A DNA stretch of 64,000 bases from Crossiella equi. GTDB taxonomy: Bacteria > Actinomycetota > Actinomycetes > Mycobacteriales > Pseudonocardiaceae. The stretch spans positions 3,271,786-3,335,785 of the forward strand of contig NZ_JAGIOO010000001.1 in assembly GCF_017876755.1 (NCBI RefSeq), read 5' to 3'. The translations under genes and the position numbers were made by a program. The stretch's first letter is position 1; each line of letters begins with the position of its first letter. Of this stretch, positions 50,689-59,933 are shown in pieces. The notes beneath the pieces were generated by a model that worked only from the letters and a program-made list of their open reading frames with translations, had not been told where the DNA came from and searched no databases.

Positions 50689-51902
50689 GGCACCAGCCTC
50701 CGCACCACGGCGTCGGCGAGCAGGCGGCCCTTGTCGGTGAGCACGCAGCGACCCTGCGCGAGCGCGGCGGGCTCCAGCAGGCCGTCGGAGGCGGCGATGC
50801 CGGCCTCCGCACGGCCGTCGGCGTCCAGCACGTCCACCGGCAGACCCTCGACCAGGCGCAGCTCCAGCAGGATGCGCTCCACGTCCCGGTCGGCCGGGTC
50901 CAGGGTCTCCCGGCCCGCCGCGGGCGAGTGGCCCTCGGCGAGCAGCTTGGCGTAGCGGCTGGGGTGCTTGACGTTCCACCAGCGCACCCCGCCGACGTGG
51001 CTGTGCGCGCCCGGTCCGGCGCCCCACCAGTCCCCGCCCAGCCAGTAGCCCAGGTTGTGGCGGCACCGGGCGGCCTCGTCGGTGGCCCAGTTGGACACCT
51101 CGTACCAGCGCAGCCCGGCCTGTTCCAGGGTGCGGTCGACCTGCTCGTACCGCTCGGCCAGCACGTCGTCGTCCGGGGTGGGCAGCTCGCCGCGGGCGAT
51201 GCGGCGGGCCAGCGCGGTGCCCTCCTCCACGATCAGCGCGTACGCCGAGACGTGGTCCACGCCCCCGTCCAGCACGACGTCCAGGGACTGCGCGAGGTCC
51301 CAGGCGCTCTCCCCGGGCGTGCCGTAGATGAGGTCGAGGTTGACGTGCTCGAACCCGGCCGCGCGGGCCTCCTTGGCCGCCGCCCGGGCCCGGCCCGGGG
51401 TGTGCGTGCGGTCCAGCACGGACAGCACGTGCGGGGCGGCCGACTGCATGCCCAGCGACACCCGGGTGTACCCGGCGTCGAGGATCCCGGCGAAGAACTC
51501 CGGCGAGGTGGACTCGGGGTTGGACTCGGTGGTGACCTCCGCGCCGGGGGCCAGGCCGAAGTTGTCGCGGACGGCGCCGAGCACCGCGGCCAGCCCGTCC
51601 GCGCCGAGCAGGGACGGGGTGCCGCCGCCCACGAACACGGTCTGCGCGGCGGGCGGGTTTCCCAGCACGTGGGCGGCCAGCGCGAGCTCGCGGCGCAGAC
51701 CCTCCAGCCAGGACTGGGGTGAGGCGGCCGAGCCCAGCTCACCGGGGGTGTAGGTGTTGAAGTCGCAGTAGCCGCAGCGGGTGGCGCAGAACGGGACGTG
51801 CACGTACACCCCGAACGGACGCGTGCCCAGGCCGGACAGGGCGGTGGCGGGCAGCGCACCGTCCTGCGGAGCGGGGTCTCCGTCGGGAAGCACAGAAGGC
51901 AT
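50685..51902 (-). CDS. hemW: radical SAM heme chaperone HemW
   Basis: The 405-residue radical SAM protein has the cluster motif CATRCGYCDF (CxxxCxxC), VFVGGGTPSLLGADGLAAVL and a HemN-like C-terminal domain. The fourth Cys used by true HemN (CxxxCxxCxC) is replaced by Phe, which fits HemW, a heme chaperone, rather than coproporphyrinogen oxidase. ATG at 51902. It is adjacent to dnaJ and hrcA in many genomes, as here. Confidence 0.92.
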   Translation of the reverse strand: MPSVLPDGDPAPQDGALPATALSGLGTRPFGVYVHVPFCATRCGYCDFNTYTPGELGSAASPQSWLEGLRRELALAAHVLGNPPAAQTVFVGGGTPSLLGADGLAAVLGAVRDNFGLAPGAEVTTESNPESTSPEFFAGILDAGYTRVSLGMQSAAPHVLSVLDRTHTPGRARAAAKEARAAGFEHVNLDLIYGTPGESAWDLAQSLDVVLDGGVDHVSAYALIVEEGTALARRIARGELPTPDDDVLAERYEQVDRTLEQAGLRWYEVSNWATDEAARCRHNLGYWLGGDWWGAGPGAHSHVGGVRWWNVKHPSRYAKLLAEGHSPAAGRETLDPADRDVERILLELRLVEGLPVDVLDADGRAEAGIAASDGLLEPAALAQGRCVLTDKGRLLADAVVRRLVP

Positions 51903-51985
51903 GACGACAGTGTCTCAAGTCGGTGGTCATCTCAGCATGCGGATGGCGGTAGACCGCCGGGTGGACGGCAGGCACACTGGGCGAC

Positions 51986-52078
51986 ATGACCTCGCCTGGA
52001 CGACGCTTGCTCCTCGTGGCCCGCCGCCACGTGGACTACCTGCGCGTCTCCAGCGCGCTCTGCCGACCGAACGTCTAG
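51986..52078 (+). CDS. 30-residue leader peptide before the sulfur operon
   Basis: A short frame from ATG 51986 to TAG 52078 encodes 30 residues with the pattern RRHVDYLRVSSALCR near the end. It matches the small actinobacterial leader peptides found upstream of sulfur-metabolism genes, with a conserved Cys codon (here followed by Arg) near the end. Such leaders are thought to sense cysteine by ribosome stalling. The reading frame is clean. There is no clear ribosome-binding site, so it may be read from a nearly leaderless transcript. A hairpin follows at 52103-52130 and the reductase gene starts 125 bp later. Confidence 0.75.
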   Translation: MTSPGRRLLLVARRHVDYLRVSSALCRPNV

Positions 52079-52102
52079 TCGGCCGCTGCATTTCTCTGAA
52101 AA

Positions 52103-52130
52103 CCAGCCGGCGACGGGACGTGTCGGCTGG
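52103..52130 (+). promoter_or_regulatory. hairpin between leader peptide and reductase gene
   Basis: CCAGCCG (52103-52109) pairs with CGGCTGG (52124-52130), loop 14 nt. It is positioned 25 bp after the leader stop, where an attenuator or a translation-masking structure would be. There is no T tract. In the remaining gap (51903-51985 and 52131-52203) I see a small GGCGGT/ACCGCC repeat and the GGAGG before the reductase, nothing more. Confidence 0.4.
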
Positions 52131-52203
52131 AGCCCTTCCCACCATGTGAAACACCGGGGCTTCGTTGGCGCGCTCGGCCGCCTCGAATCCCGGAGGTCGG
52201 ACC

Positions 52204-53889
52204 ATGGTCCCCCCAACCTCTCCCCCGGCGCGCGCTCCCAAGCAGCGTCGCGGCGAAGGGCAGTGGGCGCTGGGCTACCGCGAGCCGCTGAACCCGAACG
52301 AGCGCTCGAAGAAGGACGACAACCCGCTCAACGTGCGGGCCAGGATCGAGAACATCTACGCCCACGGCGGGTTCGACTCGATCGACCCCGCCGACCTGCG
52401 TGGACGTTTCCGCTGGTACGGCCTTTACACCCAACGCAAGCCCGGGATCGACGGCGGGCGCACCGCCGTGCTGGAGCCCGAGGAGCTCGACGACGAGTAC
52501 TTCATGCTGCGGGTGCGCGTGGACGGCGGTGCGCTGAGCACCGAGCAGCTGCGCGTGCTGGGTGAGATCTCCCAGACCTACGCGCGCGACACCGCCGACA
52601 TCACCGACCGGCAGAACATCCAGTACCACTGGATCCAGATCGAGGACGTGCCCACGATCTGGGAGAAGATCGAGGCGGTCGGCCTGAGCACCACCGAGGC
52701 CTGTGGGGACAGCCCGCGCGTGGTGCTCGGCTCCCCGGTGGCTGGCATCTCCTCCGAGGAGGTGATCGACGGCACCCCGGCCATCACCGAGATCGTCAAG
52801 CGCTACATCGGCGACCCCCGCTACTCGAACCTGCCGCGCAAGTTCAAGAGCGCGATCTCCGGTGTGCAGGACGTGGCGCACGAGATCAACGACATCTCCT
52901 TCGTCGGTGTGGACCACCCCGAGCACGGGCCCGGCTTCGACCTGTGGGTCGGCGGTGGCCTGTCCACCAACCCGATGCTGGCCAAGCGCCTCGGCGTCTG
53001 GGTGCCCCTCGACGAGGTGCCGGACGTGTGGGAGGGCGTGATCAGCGTCTTCCGCGACTACGGCTACCGGCGGCTGCGGCACCGGGCGCGCATCAAGTTC
53101 CTCGTCGCCGACTGGGGCGTGGAGAAGTTCCGCGAGGTCCTGGAGACCGAGTACCTCAAGCGGCCGCTGCTGGACGGCGTGGCGCCGCCGGAGTCCGGGC
53201 CGATCGACCACGTCGGTGTGCACCAGCAGAAGGACGGCAAGTTCTTCATCGGCGTCGCCCCGATCGCGGGCCGGGTGTCCGGCTCGACCCTGGTCGAGGT
53301 GGCCAAGGCCGTCGAGCGGGCCGGGTCGCGCCGGGTGCGGCTGACCGCGCAGCAGAAGCTCGTGGTGCTGGACGTGGCCGAGACCGAGGTCGAGGCCCTG
53401 GTCACCGAGCTGGCCAACCTCGGCCTGCACGCGCGGCCCTCCGCCTGGCGCCGGTCCACCATGGCCTGCACCGGCATCGAGTTCTGCAAGCTCGCGATCG
53501 TGGAGACCAAGGCCCGCGCGCAGCGGCTGGTCGACGAGCTGGAGCAGCGGCTGGCCGACGTCAACGCCACCCTGGCCGACAACTCGATCAGCGTGCACAT
53601 CAACGGCTGCCCCAACTCCTGCGCCCGCATCCAGACCGCGGACATCGGGCTCAAGGGCCAGATCGTCACCAACGCGGACGGTCAGCAGGTCGAGGGCTAC
53701 CAGGTGCACCTCGGTGGCGGGCTCGGCCTGGACGCCGGGTTCGGGCGCAAGCTGCGTGGCCACAAGGTGACCTCGGCCGAGCTGGGCGACTACGTGGAGC
53801 GGCTGGCCCGCAACTTCGTGGCCCAGCGCACCGAGGACGAGCGGTTCGCGCAGTGGGCGGCCCGCGCGGAGGAGGCGGACCTGCGATGA
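52204..53889 (+). CDS. sir: siroheme-dependent ferredoxin sulfite (or nitrite) reductase
   Basis: The 561-residue protein has the siroheme and [4Fe-4S] ligands in CTGIEFCKLA and NGCPNSCAR, and duplicate ferrite-reductase domains (DITDRQNIQYHWIQIED, RVRLTAQQKLVVLDV). It reduces sulfite to sulfide with six electrons. Nitrite reductases share the fold, but the operon with cysH, cysD and cysN makes sulfite the substrate. The ATG at 52204 follows GGAGG; a start 39 bp upstream is in frame but lacks a site. The last codon overlaps the next gene. Confidence 0.93.
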   Translation: MVPPTSPPARAPKQRRGEGQWALGYREPLNPNERSKKDDNPLNVRARIENIYAHGGFDSIDPADLRGRFRWYGLYTQRKPGIDGGRTAVLEPEELDDEYFMLRVRVDGGALSTEQLRVLGEISQTYARDTADITDRQNIQYHWIQIEDVPTIWEKIEAVGLSTTEACGDSPRVVLGSPVAGISSEEVIDGTPAITEIVKRYIGDPRYSNLPRKFKSAISGVQDVAHEINDISFVGVDHPEHGPGFDLWVGGGLSTNPMLAKRLGVWVPLDEVPDVWEGVISVFRDYGYRRLRHRARIKFLVADWGVEKFREVLETEYLKRPLLDGVAPPESGPIDHVGVHQQKDGKFFIGVAPIAGRVSGSTLVEVAKAVERAGSRRVRLTAQQKLVVLDVAETEVEALVTELANLGLHARPSAWRRSTMACTGIEFCKLAIVETKARAQRLVDELEQRLADVNATLADNSISVHINGCPNSCARIQTADIGLKGQIVTNADGQQVEGYQVHLGGGLGLDAGFGRKLRGHKVTSAELGDYVERLARNFVAQRTEDERFAQWAARAEEADLR

Positions 53890-54044
53890 GTGAACGTGCC
53901 ACCCCTTTCTACTGCCCGTACTGCGGCGATGAGGATCTGCGCCCGCAGGAGGAGCCGCACGGCGCCTGGGGCTGCACGGGCTGCCAGCGGGTGTTCTCGC
54001 TGAAGTTCGTCGGCCTGCGGCGCCCCACGGAGGTGACCCGGTGA
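53886..54044 (+). CDS. 52-residue zinc-ribbon protein
   Basis: This very short protein has CPYCGDEDL and CTGCQRVFSLKFVG, a four-Cys zinc ribbon. It is found between the reductase and cysH in related gene clusters, where it is poorly described. The ATG at 53886 overlaps the reductase stop (ATGA) and the end overlaps the cysH GTG (GTGA), so it is certainly translated with both. A role in electron transfer or in binding the reductase is possible but not shown. Confidence 0.75.
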   Translation: MSERATPFYCPYCGDEDLRPQEEPHGAWGCTGCQRVFSLKFVGLRRPTEVTR

Positions 54045-54736
54045 GCACCGCGGTCGACTACAAGCTGCTGGCCGAACGAGCGGGCGAGGAGCTCGCCGAG
54101 GCCACCGCGCTCGAGGCCCTGGCCTGGGTCGCGGAGACCTTCCCCCTCGAACGCTGGATCGTGGCCTCGAACATGCAGGACGCGGTGCTCATCGACCTGG
54201 CCGCCAAGGTGGCCAGCGGGTTCGACGTGCTGTTCCTGGAGACCGGCTACCACTTCGCCGAGACCATCGGCACCCGCGACGCGGTCGAGACGGTCTACCC
54301 GGTGCGCATCGTCAACGCGCGGGCCGGGCAGAGCGTGGCCGAGCAGGACGCCGAGTTCGGCAAGAACCTGTTCGAGCGGGCCCCCGACCGGTGCTGCGCG
54401 CTGCGCAAGGTCGTCCCGCTCCAGCGCACCCTGGCGAACTACGACGCGTGGGTCACCGGTGTGCGCCGGGTCGACGCGCCCACGCGCGCCAACACGCCCC
54501 TCGTCGGCTGGGACGAGCGCAACGGGCTGGTGAAGATCAACCCGATCGCCGCCTGGACCGACGAGGAGTTCAACGCCTACATCGCCGAGCACGGAATCCT
54601 GGAGAACCCCCTGGTGGGCGCCGGGTACCCGTCGATCGGCTGCGCCCCGTGCACCGCGAAGGTGGCACCGGGTGCGGACCCGCGCAGCGGGCGGTGGGCG
54701 GGCAAGGCCAAGACCGAGTGCGGCTTGCACGGGTGA
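54041..54736 (+). CDS. cysH: adenylylsulfate/phosphoadenylylsulfate reductase
   Basis: The 231-residue protein has a PP-loop-like core (ERWIVASNMQDAVLIDLAAK), the cluster-binding Cys pairs RCCALRK and CAPCTAK, and the catalytic Cys in TECGLHG. The double Cys pair shows it carries a [4Fe-4S] cluster and should use APS rather than PAPS, consistent with no APS kinase domain on CysN. GTG start at 54041 overlaps the ribbon gene. Confidence 0.93.
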   Translation: MSTAVDYKLLAERAGEELAEATALEALAWVAETFPLERWIVASNMQDAVLIDLAAKVASGFDVLFLETGYHFAETIGTRDAVETVYPVRIVNARAGQSVAEQDAEFGKNLFERAPDRCCALRKVVPLQRTLANYDAWVTGVRRVDAPTRANTPLVGWDERNGLVKINPIAAWTDEEFNAYIAEHGILENPLVGAGYPSIGCAPCTAKVAPGADPRSGRWAGKAKTECGLHG

Positions 54737-54744
54737 GGGCGGAG

Positions 54745-55653
54745 ATGACGAGCACACTGCCACGACAGGACAACCTGACCGCGTTGGAATCCGAGGCCAT
54801 CCACATCTTCCGGGAGGTGGCGGGCGAGTTCGACCGGCCGGTGATCCTGTTCTCCGGCGGCAAGGACTCCACGGTGCTGGTGCACCTGGCGCTCAAGGCC
54901 TTCTGGCCCGCGCCGGTGCCGTTCACCCTGCTGCACGTGGACACCGGCCACAACTTCGACGAGGTCATCGCCTTCCGCGACGACCTGGTCCGCAAGCACG
55001 GGCTGCGCCTGGAGGTCGCGCACGTGCAGGACTGGATCGACGACGGCAGGCTCACCGAGCGCCCGGACGGCACGCGCAACCCGCTGCAGACCGTGCCGCT
55101 GCTGGACTCCATCACCGAGCACCGCTTCGACGCGGTCTTCGGCGGGGGCCGCCGCGACGAGGAACGCGCCCGTGCCAAGGAGCGCATCTTCAGCCTGCGC
55201 AACGCCTTCGGCCAGTGGGAGCCCAAGCGGCAGCGGCCCGAGCTGTGGAACCTCTACAACGGGCGGCACCGCCCCGGCGAGCACGTGCGCGTGTTCCCGC
55301 TGTCCAACTGGACCGAGCTGGACATCTGGCGCTACATCGAGCGCGAGCGCATCGAGCTGCCGGAGATCTACTTCGCCCACGAGCGCGAGGTCTACCTGCG
55401 GGACGGCATGTGGCTGACGCAGGGCCCGTGGGGCGGGCCGCGACCGGGCGAGGAGGTGCTGCGCAAGACCATCCGCTACCGGACGGTCGGCGACGGCTCC
55501 TGCACCGGCGCGGTGGAGTCGCACGCACGCGACCTGGCCACGGTGATCGCGGAGGTCTCGGCCTCCCGGCTCACCGAGCGGGGCGCCACGCGCGCGGACG
55601 ACCGGCTCAGCGAGGCGGCCATGGAGGACCGGAAGCGAGAGGGCTACTTCTGA
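54745..55653 (+). CDS. cysD: sulfate adenylyltransferase subunit 2
   Basis: The 302-residue protein has the PP-loop FSGGKDSTVLVHLALKAF that binds ATP, and DAVFGGGRRDEERARAKERI. It joins sulfate to AMP with help from the GTPase CysN. The ATG at 54745 gives the normal family length; a GTG at 54733 overlapping the cysH stop (GTGA) is an alternative start, common in this genome. It is separated from cysN by 1 bp. Confidence 0.95.
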   Translation: MTSTLPRQDNLTALESEAIHIFREVAGEFDRPVILFSGGKDSTVLVHLALKAFWPAPVPFTLLHVDTGHNFDEVIAFRDDLVRKHGLRLEVAHVQDWIDDGRLTERPDGTRNPLQTVPLLDSITEHRFDAVFGGGRRDEERARAKERIFSLRNAFGQWEPKRQRPELWNLYNGRHRPGEHVRVFPLSNWTELDIWRYIERERIELPEIYFAHEREVYLRDGMWLTQGPWGGPRPGEEVLRKTIRYRTVGDGSCTGAVESHARDLATVIAEVSASRLTERGATRADDRLSEAAMEDRKREGYF

Positions 55654-55654
55654 C

Positions 55655-56992
55655 ATGTCTGACCTGCTGAGGCTCGCCACCGCCGGGTCCGTCGACGACG
55701 GCAAGTCCACCCTGGTCGGCCGCCTGCTCTACGACACGAAGTCGGTGCTCGCCGACCAGCTCGAGGCCGTCGAGCGGGCCAGCGTCGACCGGGGCCTGTC
55801 CACTCCGGACCTGTCGCTGCTGGTGGACGGCCTGCGCTCGGAACGCGAGCAGGGCATCACCATCGACGTGGCCTACCGCTACTTCGCCACCCCGAACCGC
55901 AGCTACGTGCTGGCCGACACCCCGGGCCACGTGCAGTACACCCGCAACACCGTCACCGGCGCCTCCACCGCGCAGCTGGCGATCCTGCTGGTGGACGCGC
56001 GCCGGGGCGTGGTCGAGCAGACCCGGCGGCACGCGGCCGTGCTGGCCATGCTCGGCGTGCCCCAGCTGGTGCTCGCGGTCAACAAGATCGACCTGATCGA
56101 CTACGACGAGACCCGGTTCGGGCTGATCGCCAAGGAGTTCCTGGCGCACGCCAACGCCCTGGGCTACTCCGAGGACGCGGTGCTGTCGGTGCCGGTGTCC
56201 GCGCTGGTCGGTGACAACGTGGTGGAACGCTCCGAGCGCACACCCTGGTACACCGGGCCGACGCTGCTGGCGCACCTGGAGTCGGTGCCGGTGCAGCCGG
56301 ACCCGCACGACGTGCCGTTCCGGTTCCCGGTGCAGTACGTGATCCGCCCGCGCACCCCCGAGCACCCCGACTACCGGGGCTACGCGGGCCAGGTCGCGGC
56401 CGGGATCGTGCGCGAGGGCGACGAGGTCGTGGTGCTGCCCGCCGGGCTGCGCAGCCGGGTGGTCGGCATCGACACCGCGGACGGTCCCCTGCCCGAGGCA
56501 GGCGCTGGTCAGTCGGTGACCCTGTTGCTGGACAACGATCTGGACATCTCCCGCGGCGACCTCATCGCCAGCGCGGAACAATCACCTCAGGTGAGTGACG
56601 AGCTCAACGCGACCGTGTGCTGGCTCGCCGAGAAACCGCTGCGGCCCAACGCCCGTGTCCTGGTCAAGCACGGCACCCGGACCGTCCCGGCCATCGTCAC
56701 CGAGTTGGCGGATCGCTTCGACGAGCAGCGACTCGCCACAGTGGACACACCAGATGCCTTGCAGCTCAACGAGATCGGCCGGGTCACCATCCGCACCGCG
56801 GAGGCCCTCCCGCTCGACGAGTACACCAGCAGCCGCCGCACCGGTTCCTTCCTGGTGATCGACCCCCACGACGGGGCGACCCTGGCCGCCGGGCTGGTCG
56901 GCGCGCCACTCCCGGTTCCGGACGTCAACGAGGACGGCGGGCTCGGCGCGAACACCGCCGACAACCGCGCCCTCGTCTCCCCCGGCCCCTAG
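55655..56992 (+). CDS. cysN: sulfate adenylyltransferase subunit 1 (GTPase)
   Basis: The 445-residue translation-factor-like GTPase has G1 GSVDDGKSTL, G3 DTPGH, G4 NKID and two beta-barrel domains. It lacks the C-terminal APS kinase (CysC) domain that is fused in mycobacteria, so this pathway should stop at APS. ATG at 55655. Confidence 0.95.
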   Translation: MSDLLRLATAGSVDDGKSTLVGRLLYDTKSVLADQLEAVERASVDRGLSTPDLSLLVDGLRSEREQGITIDVAYRYFATPNRSYVLADTPGHVQYTRNTVTGASTAQLAILLVDARRGVVEQTRRHAAVLAMLGVPQLVLAVNKIDLIDYDETRFGLIAKEFLAHANALGYSEDAVLSVPVSALVGDNVVERSERTPWYTGPTLLAHLESVPVQPDPHDVPFRFPVQYVIRPRTPEHPDYRGYAGQVAAGIVREGDEVVVLPAGLRSRVVGIDTADGPLPEAGAGQSVTLLLDNDLDISRGDLIASAEQSPQVSDELNATVCWLAEKPLRPNARVLVKHGTRTVPAIVTELADRFDEQRLATVDTPDALQLNEIGRVTIRTAEALPLDEYTSSRRTGSFLVIDPHDGATLAAGLVGAPLPVPDVNEDGGLGANTADNRALVSPGP

Positions 56993-57028: not shown

Positions 57029-58117
57029 GTGCGCACCCCTCGACGTCGGCCACGTGCCCTGACCGCCGCGCTCGCCGCCGCCGCACTGCTGGTCGCGGCC
57101 GGTTGTTCCCGGGCGGCCGAGTCGACGACCCAGAGCAGCGACGCCGGCCCGGCGGCCGAGCTGCGGCTCGGGTTCTTCCCCAACGTCACGCACGCCCCGG
57201 CCCTGGTCGGCATCAACGAGGACAAGAAGTTCATCGCCAAGGAGCTTGGCGCGACCAAGCTCAGCACCCAGGCGTTCAACGCGGGCCCCTCCGCGGTGGA
57301 GGCGCTGCTGGCCGGTTCCCTCGACGCCACGTTCATCGGCCCGAACCCGACCATCAACGCCTTCACCAAGTCCAACGGCGCGGCCATCCGGCTGGTCGCG
57401 GGCGCGGCCACCGGCGGCGCGCAGCTGGTGGTCAAGCCCGGTATCAACGGGCCCGCCGACCTCAAGGGCAGGACGATCGCCACCCCGCAGCTCGGCGGCA
57501 CCCAGGACGTGGCGCTGCGCGCGTGGCTGGCGGGCAACGGCCTGAAGGTGGAGAGCACCGGCGGCAAGGACGTCAAGGTCGCCAACACCGAGAACCCGCA
57601 GACCTTCGACGCCTTCCGCACCAACCAGCTCGACGGCGGCTGGCTGCCCGAGCCGTGGTCCTCGCGCCTGGTCCTGGAGGCCGGGGGCAAGGTGCTGGTG
57701 GACGAGCGGGACCTGTGGCCGGGCGGCAGGTTCCCGACCACGGTGCTGATCGTGCGCACCGAGTTCCTGCAGAAGCACCCGGCCACGGTCAAGGCGCTGC
57801 TGCGCGGGCACGTGGCCGCGACCAGGTTCCTCGGCGACAGCCCGGCCGAGGCCAAGCAGCTGGTCAACGCCGCGCTCGGCAAGTACGCGGGCAAGCCCCT
57901 GCCCGGCCCGGTGCTGGAGCGGGCGTTCGGCCAGATCTCCTTCACCACCGACCCGGCCGCGGGCACCTTCCCGAAGCTGTCCAAGGACGCGGTGGCCGCC
58001 GGGGTGGCCAAGGAGGAGTTCGACCTCAAGGGCCTGGTCGACCTCAGCGCGCTGAACGAGGCGCTCACGGCCGCCGGGCTGCCCGCGGTGGACGCCGCCG
58101 GCCTGGACCGGAAGTGA
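57029..58117 (+). CDS. ABC transporter substrate-binding lipoprotein (SsuA/TauA type)
   Basis: The 362-residue lipoprotein has a signal with lipobox LLVAAGC (C26). An NMT1/ThiY-like fold follows with LRLGFFPNVTHAPALVGINE, SAVEALLAGSLDATFIGPNP and the closing domain ending NEALTAAGLPAV. It should bind a sulfonate, taurine or similar anion outside the membrane. The gene lies 36 bp after cysN in the same operon. Substrate is by context. GTG start at 57029. Confidence 0.85.
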   Translation: MRTPRRRPRALTAALAAAALLVAAGCSRAAESTTQSSDAGPAAELRLGFFPNVTHAPALVGINEDKKFIAKELGATKLSTQAFNAGPSAVEALLAGSLDATFIGPNPTINAFTKSNGAAIRLVAGAATGGAQLVVKPGINGPADLKGRTIATPQLGGTQDVALRAWLAGNGLKVESTGGKDVKVANTENPQTFDAFRTNQLDGGWLPEPWSSRLVLEAGGKVLVDERDLWPGGRFPTTVLIVRTEFLQKHPATVKALLRGHVAATRFLGDSPAEAKQLVNAALGKYAGKPLPGPVLERAFGQISFTTDPAAGTFPKLSKDAVAAGVAKEEFDLKGLVDLSALNEALTAAGLPAVDAAGLDRK

Positions 58118-58273
58118 CAGAACACCCATGACCCCAATCCCTGCCCCCTCCCCAAGCGGCCTCCAACCGCACCCAAGGGGACCGAAACGCACCCCAGCCA
58201 CAAGCACGAGCGAACCCGCTCAGTTCCACCCAACGCGACCACAGCAGGAAAAACCCGGGGAGGCGGAACAGCA

Positions 58274-59048
<775 letters not shown>

Positions 59049-59062
<14 letters not shown>

Positions 59063-59933
59063 GGCCAAGCCCGCGGAGGACCTGTCCGCCCTGGAAGCCG
59101 GTCTGGACGCGCTCGACGCCCCGGAGGCCAAGCGGTCCGGGGGCGGTCTGCGGCGCGTGCTGCGCTCGGTGCTGCCGCCGCTGGTCGCGCTCGGCCTGGT
59201 CATCGTGGTGTGGCAGGCGCTGTGGGCCTCGGCGATCGAGCCGGAGTACAAGCTGCCCGCCCCGCTGACCGTGGCGAACGTGCTGTGGGAGCGCCTGCTG
59301 GACGGGAGGGCCTGGGAGACGCTGTGGGTGTCCACGCACCGCGCGGTGCTGGGCTTCCTGGCCGCCGTGGCGATCGGCACCCCGCTCGGGCTGCTGGTGG
59401 CGCGGATCTCGTTGGTGCGCTCGGCGATCGGGCCGCTGCTGAGCGGGCTGCAGAGCCTGCCGTCGGTGGCCTGGGTGCCCGCGGCGCTGCTGTGGCTGGG
59501 CCTGAACGACTCGATGATCTACGCGGTGGTGCTGCTCGGCGCGGTGCCCTCGATCGCCAACGGCCTGGTGGCGGGCATCGACCAGGTGCCGCCGCTGCTG
59601 CTGCGCGTGGGCACCGTGCTCGGCGCGGGCCAGCTCCAGTCCGCGCGGCACGTGCTGCTGCCCGCCGCACTGCCCGGCTACCTGGCCGGGCTCAAGCAGG
59701 GCTGGGCGTTCTCCTGGCGGTCGCTGATGGCCGCGGAGATCATCGCGCGCTCGCCGGACCTGGGCATCGGGCTCGGGCAGATGCTGGAGGAGGGCCGCCA
59801 GCTCACCGACATGTCCCTGGTCATCGCGGCGATCCTGCTGATCCTGCTGGTGGGTGTGGGCGTGGAGCTGCTGGTGTTCCGCCCGCTGGAGCGCCGGGTG
59901 CTGCGGGCCCGGGGTCTGGCGGCGGCGCTGTGA
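59049..59933 (+). CDS. ABC transporter permease (SsuC type)
   Basis: The 294-residue protein has a hydrophilic Ala/Glu-rich N terminus of 40 residues and six membrane helices. The EAA-type loop with ATPase contact lies at RVGTVLGAGQLQSARHVLLP. It completes the importer. The ATG at 59049 lies within the end of the ATPase gene and the stop overlaps the chelatase start, so three genes are co-translated. Confidence 0.9.

Follow-up and report, generated by a model that had tools for sequence, protein, structure and literature searches.

The trp, his and leu leaders are the classical amino-acid attenuators, and TnaC and SecM are arrest peptides. Closest to the locus analyzed here are the mycobacterial polycysteine leaderless small ORFs (sORFs), which Canestrari et al. 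reportedly described in 2020 as acting by cysteine-responsive attenuation; in M. smegmatis, a ribosome stalled at Cys is said to free a downstream ribosome site. As far as the available portions of the following sources go, leaders with Cys runs were predicted in 2005 upstream of cys operons in mycobacteria, no terminators being seen and Rho being weakly suggested (PMC1262725); conserved Cys-rich small ORFs were found on leaderless mycobacterial mRNAs, a regulatory role being called speculative (PMC4633059); six such Cys-rich ORFs were predicted in M. tuberculosis (PMC9094748); the mechanism was termed translation attenuation (PMC13236596); and a review reported that the mycobacterial relatives respond to cysteine by attenuation (PMC9031893). 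Eight leaders from S. lividans appear in the portion available of PMC8079986, none assigned there to cysteine. A search by title and abstract, which covered the literature in part and left most subscription journals outside, found no paper on single-Cys leaders of Pseudonocardiaceae or on arrest by this peptide. The type of control is already known; the locus described below carries a single Cys codon in place of the Cys run.

The locus was found in a 64,000-nucleotide stretch of DNA from Crossiella equi (hereafter the window; RefSeq assembly GCF_017876755.1, contig NZ_JAGIOO010000001.1, positions 3,271,786 to 3,335,785 of the forward strand), in which position 1 is the first letter. Its leader region comprises the following features:

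51950-51955, + strand: -35-like hexamer TAGACC, 17 nt before the -10-like hexamer and also found in other Crossiella sequences
51973-51978, + strand: -10-like hexamer CACACT, separated by 7 nt from the leader ATG
51986-52078, + strand: leader ORF of 30 codons, encoding MTSPGRRLLLVARRHVDYLRVSSALCRPNV and matching NF042934
52022-52063, + strand: conserved 14-codon core RRHVDYLRVSSALC, with R1, D5, R8 and C14 in 81/81 sequences
52061-52063, + strand: sole Cys codon of the leader (TGC in the window), the presumed sensor; Cys14 in 81/81 sequences

A preliminary description of this DNA had taken the 30-codon frame containing RRHVDYLRVSSALCR for an actinobacterial sulfur leader peptide. The frame is real (51986-52078, + strand), and its stop is separated by 125 nt from the start of a reductase gene on the same strand. 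The leader aligned over all 19 positions of the NCBIfam model NF042934 (“putative leader peptide”, cis_reg_atten) and scored 29.1 bits against a cut-off of 27 (27.6 bits for the same leader in a genome-wide search), and it lies before a sulfur operon. The NCBI name is itself a prediction, however, and the model is silent on the RNA part. Against the Cys-rich models for Ms4527A and Ms5788A (NF042936 and NF042933), the leader reached 30.9 and 14.7 bits, respectively, below the cut-offs of 45 bits. The assignment also held across relatives: a reductase search of bacterial genomes yielded at least 587 confirmed relatives, and in 80/80 of the best 80, which were analyzed, the leader was found before the orthologous reductase gene (76 via a motif search, and four more from printed frames with RRY or RRF for RRH). 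The nearest relative among the matches listed was Crossiella sp. SN42, with a reductase identity of 92%. Five of the loci are from other Crossiella; two of these, L003 and L115, are identical over 900/900 bases and probably represent one genome, leaving four that are distinct.

The start of the leader mRNA was assessed in the 73 of the 81 loci that could be aligned, i.e. those with a start codon 10–12 codons before the core. A NANNNT hexamer was present 6–7 nt before the leader start in 73/73, while each of the remaining spacings between 0 and 44 nt accounted for at most 13 of the 73, and a loose -35-like pattern was found in 43/73. SD-like motifs preceded 10/73 leaders compared with 70/73 reductase starts. 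Based on the position of the -10-like hexamer 6–7 nt before the start, the mRNA probably begins at the leader ATG. The leader is thus probably leaderless, with transcription starting at or next to the ATG, a point that extends the preliminary description. In L003 and L115 the leader starts with GTG instead of ATG.

The genes that follow the leader are listed below, beginning with the ribosome site of the first:

52192-52196, + strand: Shine-Dalgarno (SD) sequence GGAGG of the reductase gene, whose ATG is at 52204
52204-53889, + strand: ferredoxin-type sulfite/nitrite reductase (NIR_SIR; PF01077, PF03460), first gene of the presumed operon
54041-54736, + strand: first PAPS_reduct protein
ending at 55653, + strand: second PAPS_reduct protein
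55655-56992, + strand: EF-Tu-type GTPase
57029-59933, + strand: NMT1-type ABC transporter
after the NMT1-type ABC transporter: CbiX protein

By our reading, the two PAPS_reduct proteins are CysH-like and then CysD-like, and the EF-Tu-type GTPase (55655-56992) is CysN-like. From adjacency and strand, the reductase through CbiX presumably form a single sulfur operon, upstream of which hemW lies beyond the leader in divergent orientation. A 52-codon ORF (53886-54044, MSERATPFYCPYCGDEDLRPQEEPHGAWGCTGC...) that follows the reductase gene and precedes the CysH-like one contains two CxxC pairs; a Pfam search with this ORF gave no match.

Three hairpins between the leader stop and the reductase gene enter the analysis:

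52103-52130, + strand: hairpin H1 (CCAGCCG/CGGCTGG stem) after the leader stop, with covariation in 27 Pseudonocardiaceae-type loci
52078-52114, + strand: alternative hairpin (2:3), which uses the H1 5' arm and is predicted with a ribosome waiting at the Cys codon
52154-52193, + strand: sequestor hairpin, pairing the first two SD bases (52192-52193), with 69.6% of cells paired

H1 is the hairpin that had been noticed after the stop. Its arms are CCAGCCG (52103-52109) and CGGCTGG (52124-52130), and position 52130, where the earlier feature ended, is its 3' end. Covariation was counted in an alignment of 27 Pseudonocardiaceae-type loci that we chose before counting (hereafter the 27-set). The H1 and sequestor pairs together showed double-sided changes in 24 cells versus 11.0 in shuffles, with 0/500 shuffles as high. 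When partners were slid by 1–3 columns, 4–15 double changes were found and pairing dropped from 76.9% to 33–45%, a comparison that favours the pairs as named, since they were taken from this alignment itself. For H1 alone, 82.1% of cells were paired and six of ten pairs had double changes. Two further measures for H1 and the sequestor in the 27-set were not clearly above shuffles: how many pairs had double changes (9 vs 6.4, 38/500 shuffles as high) and how many pair types occurred (22 vs 21.3). Across 16 genus-level groups, the two H1 arms paired better within a genus than between genera (p < 0.0002). Judged by covariation, H1 is conserved. RNAalifold on six Crossiella-genus sequences, two of them identical, gave 112 pairs with 0 double changes, the sequences being too alike.

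Of the competing pairings, that between the Cys region and the H1 3' arm (1:4), which in the window is part of the ribosome-free fold, passed the matched-pair test (p 0.0028). The post-stop bases with the H1 5' arm (2:3) were not significant in the cross-genus matched-pair test (p 0.15), and compared with shuffles had z -1.06, with 15/27 loci below -1. Between the Cys region and the post-stop bases (1:2), pairing was not above chance (z +0.44; p 0.17). Among 14 segment pairs, those that stood out were post-stop:middle (z -0.83, 68 loci), Cys region:middle (z -0.83, 27-set) and sequestor:SD (z -1.32, 27-set). The 70 nt after the stop were, as a whole, hardly more stable than shuffles (mean z -0.25 in the 27-set and -0.54 over all loci), and the fold of 52079-52203 alone was moderately unusual (z -1.30).

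The effect of ribosome position on H1 was modelled by folding the nascent window RNA with a 30-nt ribosome footprint masked. The modelled probability of H1 in the window was 0.00 without a ribosome, 0.00 when the Cys codon was in the A site and 1.00 with the ribosome at the stop; with a half-width of 12 nt, the corresponding values were 0.00, 0.13 and 1.00. In a codon scan from codon 5, the probability was 0.00–0.02 at all positions up to Cys, then 0.02–0.03 and 0.14–0.25 at the first two codons after Cys, and 0.90–0.99 at the third, remaining within 0.90–1.00 until the stop was reached, which places the predicted switch point two to three codons past the Cys codon. When the 24 nt that separate the stop from H1 in the window were shuffled, 29/300 versions showed the same switch. 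For the five other Crossiella loci (four distinct), the modelled probability was 0.01–0.03 without a ribosome and 0.00 at Cys in 5/5; at the stop it was 0.98 in 4/5 (3/4 distinct), with L117 at just 0.18.

Beyond this genus, the stop-minus-Cys difference in H1 probability averaged 0.32 over 26 loci versus 0.12 for shuffled sequences, and it exceeded 0.5 in 8/26 loci versus 12% of shuffles (L035, whose H1 arm is unaligned, was omitted from this and the by-genus count). By genus, the difference was 0.25 versus 0.13 shuffled (P 0.013, 15 genera), or P 0.071 when the first locus per genus was used. Seven of the 15 genera were higher than their own shuffles, six were lower and two were zero in both. 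The signal was carried by Crossiella (1.00), Actinosynnema (0.73), Lentzea (0.71) and Labedaea (0.44), with Saccharothrix, Tamaricihabitans and Prauserella slightly above their own shuffles; Kutzneria, Actinokineospora, Kibdelosporangium, Goodfellowiella, Qaidamihabitans and the YIM PH 21723 locus were below theirs. Across the 15 genera, the predicted ribosome-dependent switch is moderately better than chance.

Our preferred reading, which we consider probable, is that the sulfur-assimilation operon is under the control of a leader of the actinobacterial NF042934 type that acts in cis, is leaderless and senses cysteine, the cysteine response being the putative part. As the promoter spacing suggests, transcription would start at the leader ATG and a ribosome would translate the leader. 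With Cys-tRNA plentiful, the ribosome would pass the single Cys codon and reach the stop, where H1 is modelled to form because the ribosome footprint covers the bases after the stop; formation of H1 would mean low expression. With Cys-tRNA scarce, the ribosome would wait at the Cys codon, leaving the post-stop bases to pair with the H1 5' arm, so that H1 would be blocked and the operon expressed. H1 could lower expression through U-less termination, by making RNA polymerase pause, through Rho or at the level of translation. Like the classical attenuators, this scheme has a sensor codon, a role for ribosome position and mutually exclusive hairpins (here modelled). It differs from them in its single sensor codon, in having no U-tract terminator and in the conservation of non-sensor residues and, unlike a classical attenuator, H1 in the window is predicted to be off (0.00) without any ribosome.

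The ribosome-dependent attenuation put forward in the preliminary description stands in part. In the model, whether H1 forms in the window's RNA does depend on where the ribosome stands, and the switch falls right after the Cys codon. However, the text-book form is unsupported, since there is no intrinsic terminator; a ribosome stalled at Cys is not predicted to release the reductase ribosome site; and the switch was above its shuffles in just 7/15 genera. That description was right on the object and is plausible on the mechanism.

Among the alternatives for how H1 might act, control of transcription at or after H1, by pausing, U-less termination or Rho once the ribosome has gone, is possible, although we consider it less likely than not. 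In the model, H1 formation is the element that tracks ribosome position, and in the 27-set H1 is followed by a stretch rich in C and poor in G, where C minus G was +0.19 to +0.20 at 40–70 nt past the stop compared with 0.00 in the reductase gene (sd 0.15, single windows). A CCCACCAC-type motif was found in 30/81 loci versus 140/1620 shuffles in the region matching window positions 52131-52156. Mycobacterial cys leaders were likewise described without terminators, with Rho weakly suggested, in the portion available of PMC1262725. On the other hand, no intrinsic (U-tract, Rho-independent) terminator was found in 51850-52260, and the exact CCCACCAC-type motif is absent from 51/81 loci, including the window. 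The C-rich stretch is a possible loading site, compatible with Rho and not proof of it. A comparison of 51900-52260 with the Rfam covariance models, at E values up to 1, found no match.

The leader peptide itself provides a second alternative, in which the stall at the lone Cys is set by R1, H3, V4, D5 and R8 in the exit tunnel (nascent-chain arrest), or the peptide senses cysteine or a derivative; the downstream RNA switch would be unchanged. We regard this as rather unlikely. In its favour, R1, D5, R8 and C14 are invariant in all 81 sequences (the window and the best 80 of at least 587 relatives), and H3 (76/81), V4 (77/81) and S11 (74/81) are nearly so. Since 0/80 loci lacked the leader, this invariance was not produced by the search motif. 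It was maintained despite synonymous variation, with R1 encoded by CGC (41 leaders), CGG (15), CGT (13), CGA (8) or AGG (4) and D5 by GAC or GAT among the 81. Among leader pairs more than 60% identical, pN/pS was 0.34 in frame versus 1.28 and 1.60 out of frame; the leader frame is under protein-level constraint, and the conserved residues are not confined to the Cys codon, which the preliminary description had not noted. The invariance of R1, D5 and R8 is more than a pure codon sensor would need. A single Cys is present in 57/81 leaders, and in a second set of loci residue 5 was Asp in 70/70 leaders under a pattern that allowed Glu and Asn. As in TnaC and SecM, the invariant residues lie N-terminal to the presumed stall codon, arrest being hypothetical here.

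Several observations count against arrest. The conservation may instead reflect a role of the peptide in trans or a local RNA structure (GTG/CAC, 65/81), and residues 2 and 3 of the core do vary. Furthermore, the Cys runs of mycobacterial members suggest codon sensing. Two to seven Cys were present in 24/81 leaders, and 17 of these 24 belong to loci whose titles read Rhodococcus, Prescottella, Nocardia, Mycolicibacterium or mycobacterial. A fuller version of the idea holds that RRHVDxxRVxSAxC is a cysteine-dependent arrest sequence with tunnel contacts at R1, H3, D5 and R8, part of a multi-copy, ribosome-run sulfur regulon; it is more tentative still, and in our estimate unlikely. Were it true, the single Cys codon (often the rare UGU; UGC in the window) would be critically sensitive to Cys-tRNA, or cysteine would be sensed directly, actinobacteria would use several copies as a ribosome-run sulfur regulon, and the Cys runs of mycobacteria would have arisen from it as a form that relies more on codons.

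Codon choice was also uneven at the conserved residues. Compared with the reductase genes of the same loci, and uncorrected for relatedness, Cys14 was TGT in 48/81 loci (vs about 5%), Arg8 was CGT in 37/81 (vs 5%) and Asp5 was GAT in 23/81 (vs 6%). Averaged over 35 genus-level labels, TGT at Cys14 was 0.53 versus 0.09; among single-Cys leaders it was found in 26/57, the window itself having TGC. Third-position GC was 0.41 at Cys14 and 0.54 at Arg8, compared with 0.89–0.98 at columns 2–4, so the shift toward rare codons is uneven among leader columns. A rare codon at the sensor position is a feature that a stall site might favour. The use of AGC for Ser11 (70/74) was considered as proof of RNA constraint and rejected, because AGY serines lie two steps from UCN serines, and strong selection to keep Ser is enough to account for it.

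A separate pattern concerns GTG at Val-1 and CAC at His3, found together in 65/81 leaders (window positions 52016-52030), where an in-frame GUGG/CCAC hairpin is possible. In the 14 leaders in which position 3 is CAT, TAC or TTC, Val-1 is GTG in only 3. The pattern could reflect RNA structure or shared ancestry.

The third alternative is translation attenuation as reported for M. smegmatis, in which a stall at Cys would prevent a structure from hiding the downstream ribosome site; this too seems to us a somewhat improbable account of the window. A local hairpin does pair part of GGAGG, and sequestor:SD pairing, besides its mean z of -1.32 over the 27 loci, was below z -1.5 in 14 of them. Without a ribosome, the SD was costlier to open than in shuffles (7.45 vs 6.20 kcal/mol, 27-set). 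However, a modelled stall at Cys gave no lower opening cost than a ribosome at the stop: the mean difference was -0.04 kcal/mol in the 27-set and -0.23 kcal/mol over all 81 loci, i.e. no difference, and in the window the cost was 10.2 kcal/mol at Cys versus 8.7 at the stop, opposite to release. These costs come from an equilibrium folding model, which has kinetic effects outside its reach. In addition, the sequestor begins 76 nt past the leader stop, beyond the reach of the stalled ribosome, and its helix is less well paired than H1 (69.6% vs 82.1%).

A reading in which the frame is open by chance and H1 belongs to promoter or spacer DNA is very improbable: although short ORFs are common in high-GC DNA and the fold of 52079-52203 has a z of just -1.30, the leader is conserved in 80/80 loci (best 80 of at least 587) under in-frame constraint, the promoter spacing is kept in 73/73 and H1 covaries.

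Returning to the preferred reading of a cysteine-sensing leader with a ribosome-dependent hairpin, the comparison with Ms4527A, Ms5788A and the mycobacterial polycysteine sORFs is close. The core and the kind of target, sulfur genes, are the same, RRHVDFKRVCSCCC-type leaders were found before the orthologous reductase in mycobacterial loci, and the polycysteine sORFs share the probable leaderless start of the window's leader. The mycobacterial leaders have a run of Cys codons, whereas the window has one, together with a post-stop H1 that the model ties to ribosome position. Two elements go beyond what is known: the ribosome-position-dependent hairpin after the stop, which the folding model moderately supports, and conservation at the peptide level, which, from the aligned leaders, is unexplained by a codon-only sensor. 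The conserved single-Cys form raises the question of whether the peptide, besides the codon, sets the stall, and the window, with its predicted switch point, offers a small system for testing it.

The distribution of the leader was surveyed with the NF042934 model. Among 100 genomes of the same family, 97 had a match at E ≤ 0.001 and 92 were over the cut-off, compared with 15 and 12, respectively, among 198 genomes drawn from the phylum; 0/14 control genomes had a leader match. Given the 97/100 genomes, high-GC actinomycetes may regulate their sulfur genes to a considerable extent by way of ribosomes on tiny leaders. One genus was represented by three genomes (G027, G065 and G093, 10–12 Mb each), and none of them had a match at E ≤ 0.001, possibly through natural loss. 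The window's genome had two family matches, while three others of its genus (G016, G055 and G086) had 6–7 at the same threshold. The second leader of the window's genome (L002 1477-1560, around G000:C1:3924527) precedes an SDF-type symporter and, unlike the reductase leaders, has no NANNNT hexamer 6–8 nt before its start.

A wider set of 71 leader loci from the family genomes was picked by score or by us and read with a pattern that fixes R1, R8 and C14. The core was present in 70/71 loci (L154 being without it), with just D5 informative, as Asp in 70/70 where Glu and Asn were allowed. A NANNNT hexamer was found 6–8 nt before some in-frame start in 51/70, a looser rule than that used for the 73 leaders above. 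By printed N-termini, at least 18/71 loci again lie before the reductase gene. The downstream gene was taken as the longest ORF starting within about 420 nt. Among 20 downstream proteins chosen for variety, there were three SDF symporters, two ABC ATPases, two permeases and two OsmC proteins, and one each of TauE, NMT1, NlpA, a Cys/Met PLP enzyme, SBP56, an acyl-CoA dehydrogenase-like protein, a luciferase-like protein, MFS, DUF4395, a SCO4226-like protein and a Trans_reg_C regulator. On these annotations, the targets appear to lean to sulfur and thiol genes. Seven loci (L087–L089, L103, L132, L145 and L147) form a leader subfamily with RRAVDLCR for RRHVDxxR, and one of these, L089, precedes the DUF4395 protein.
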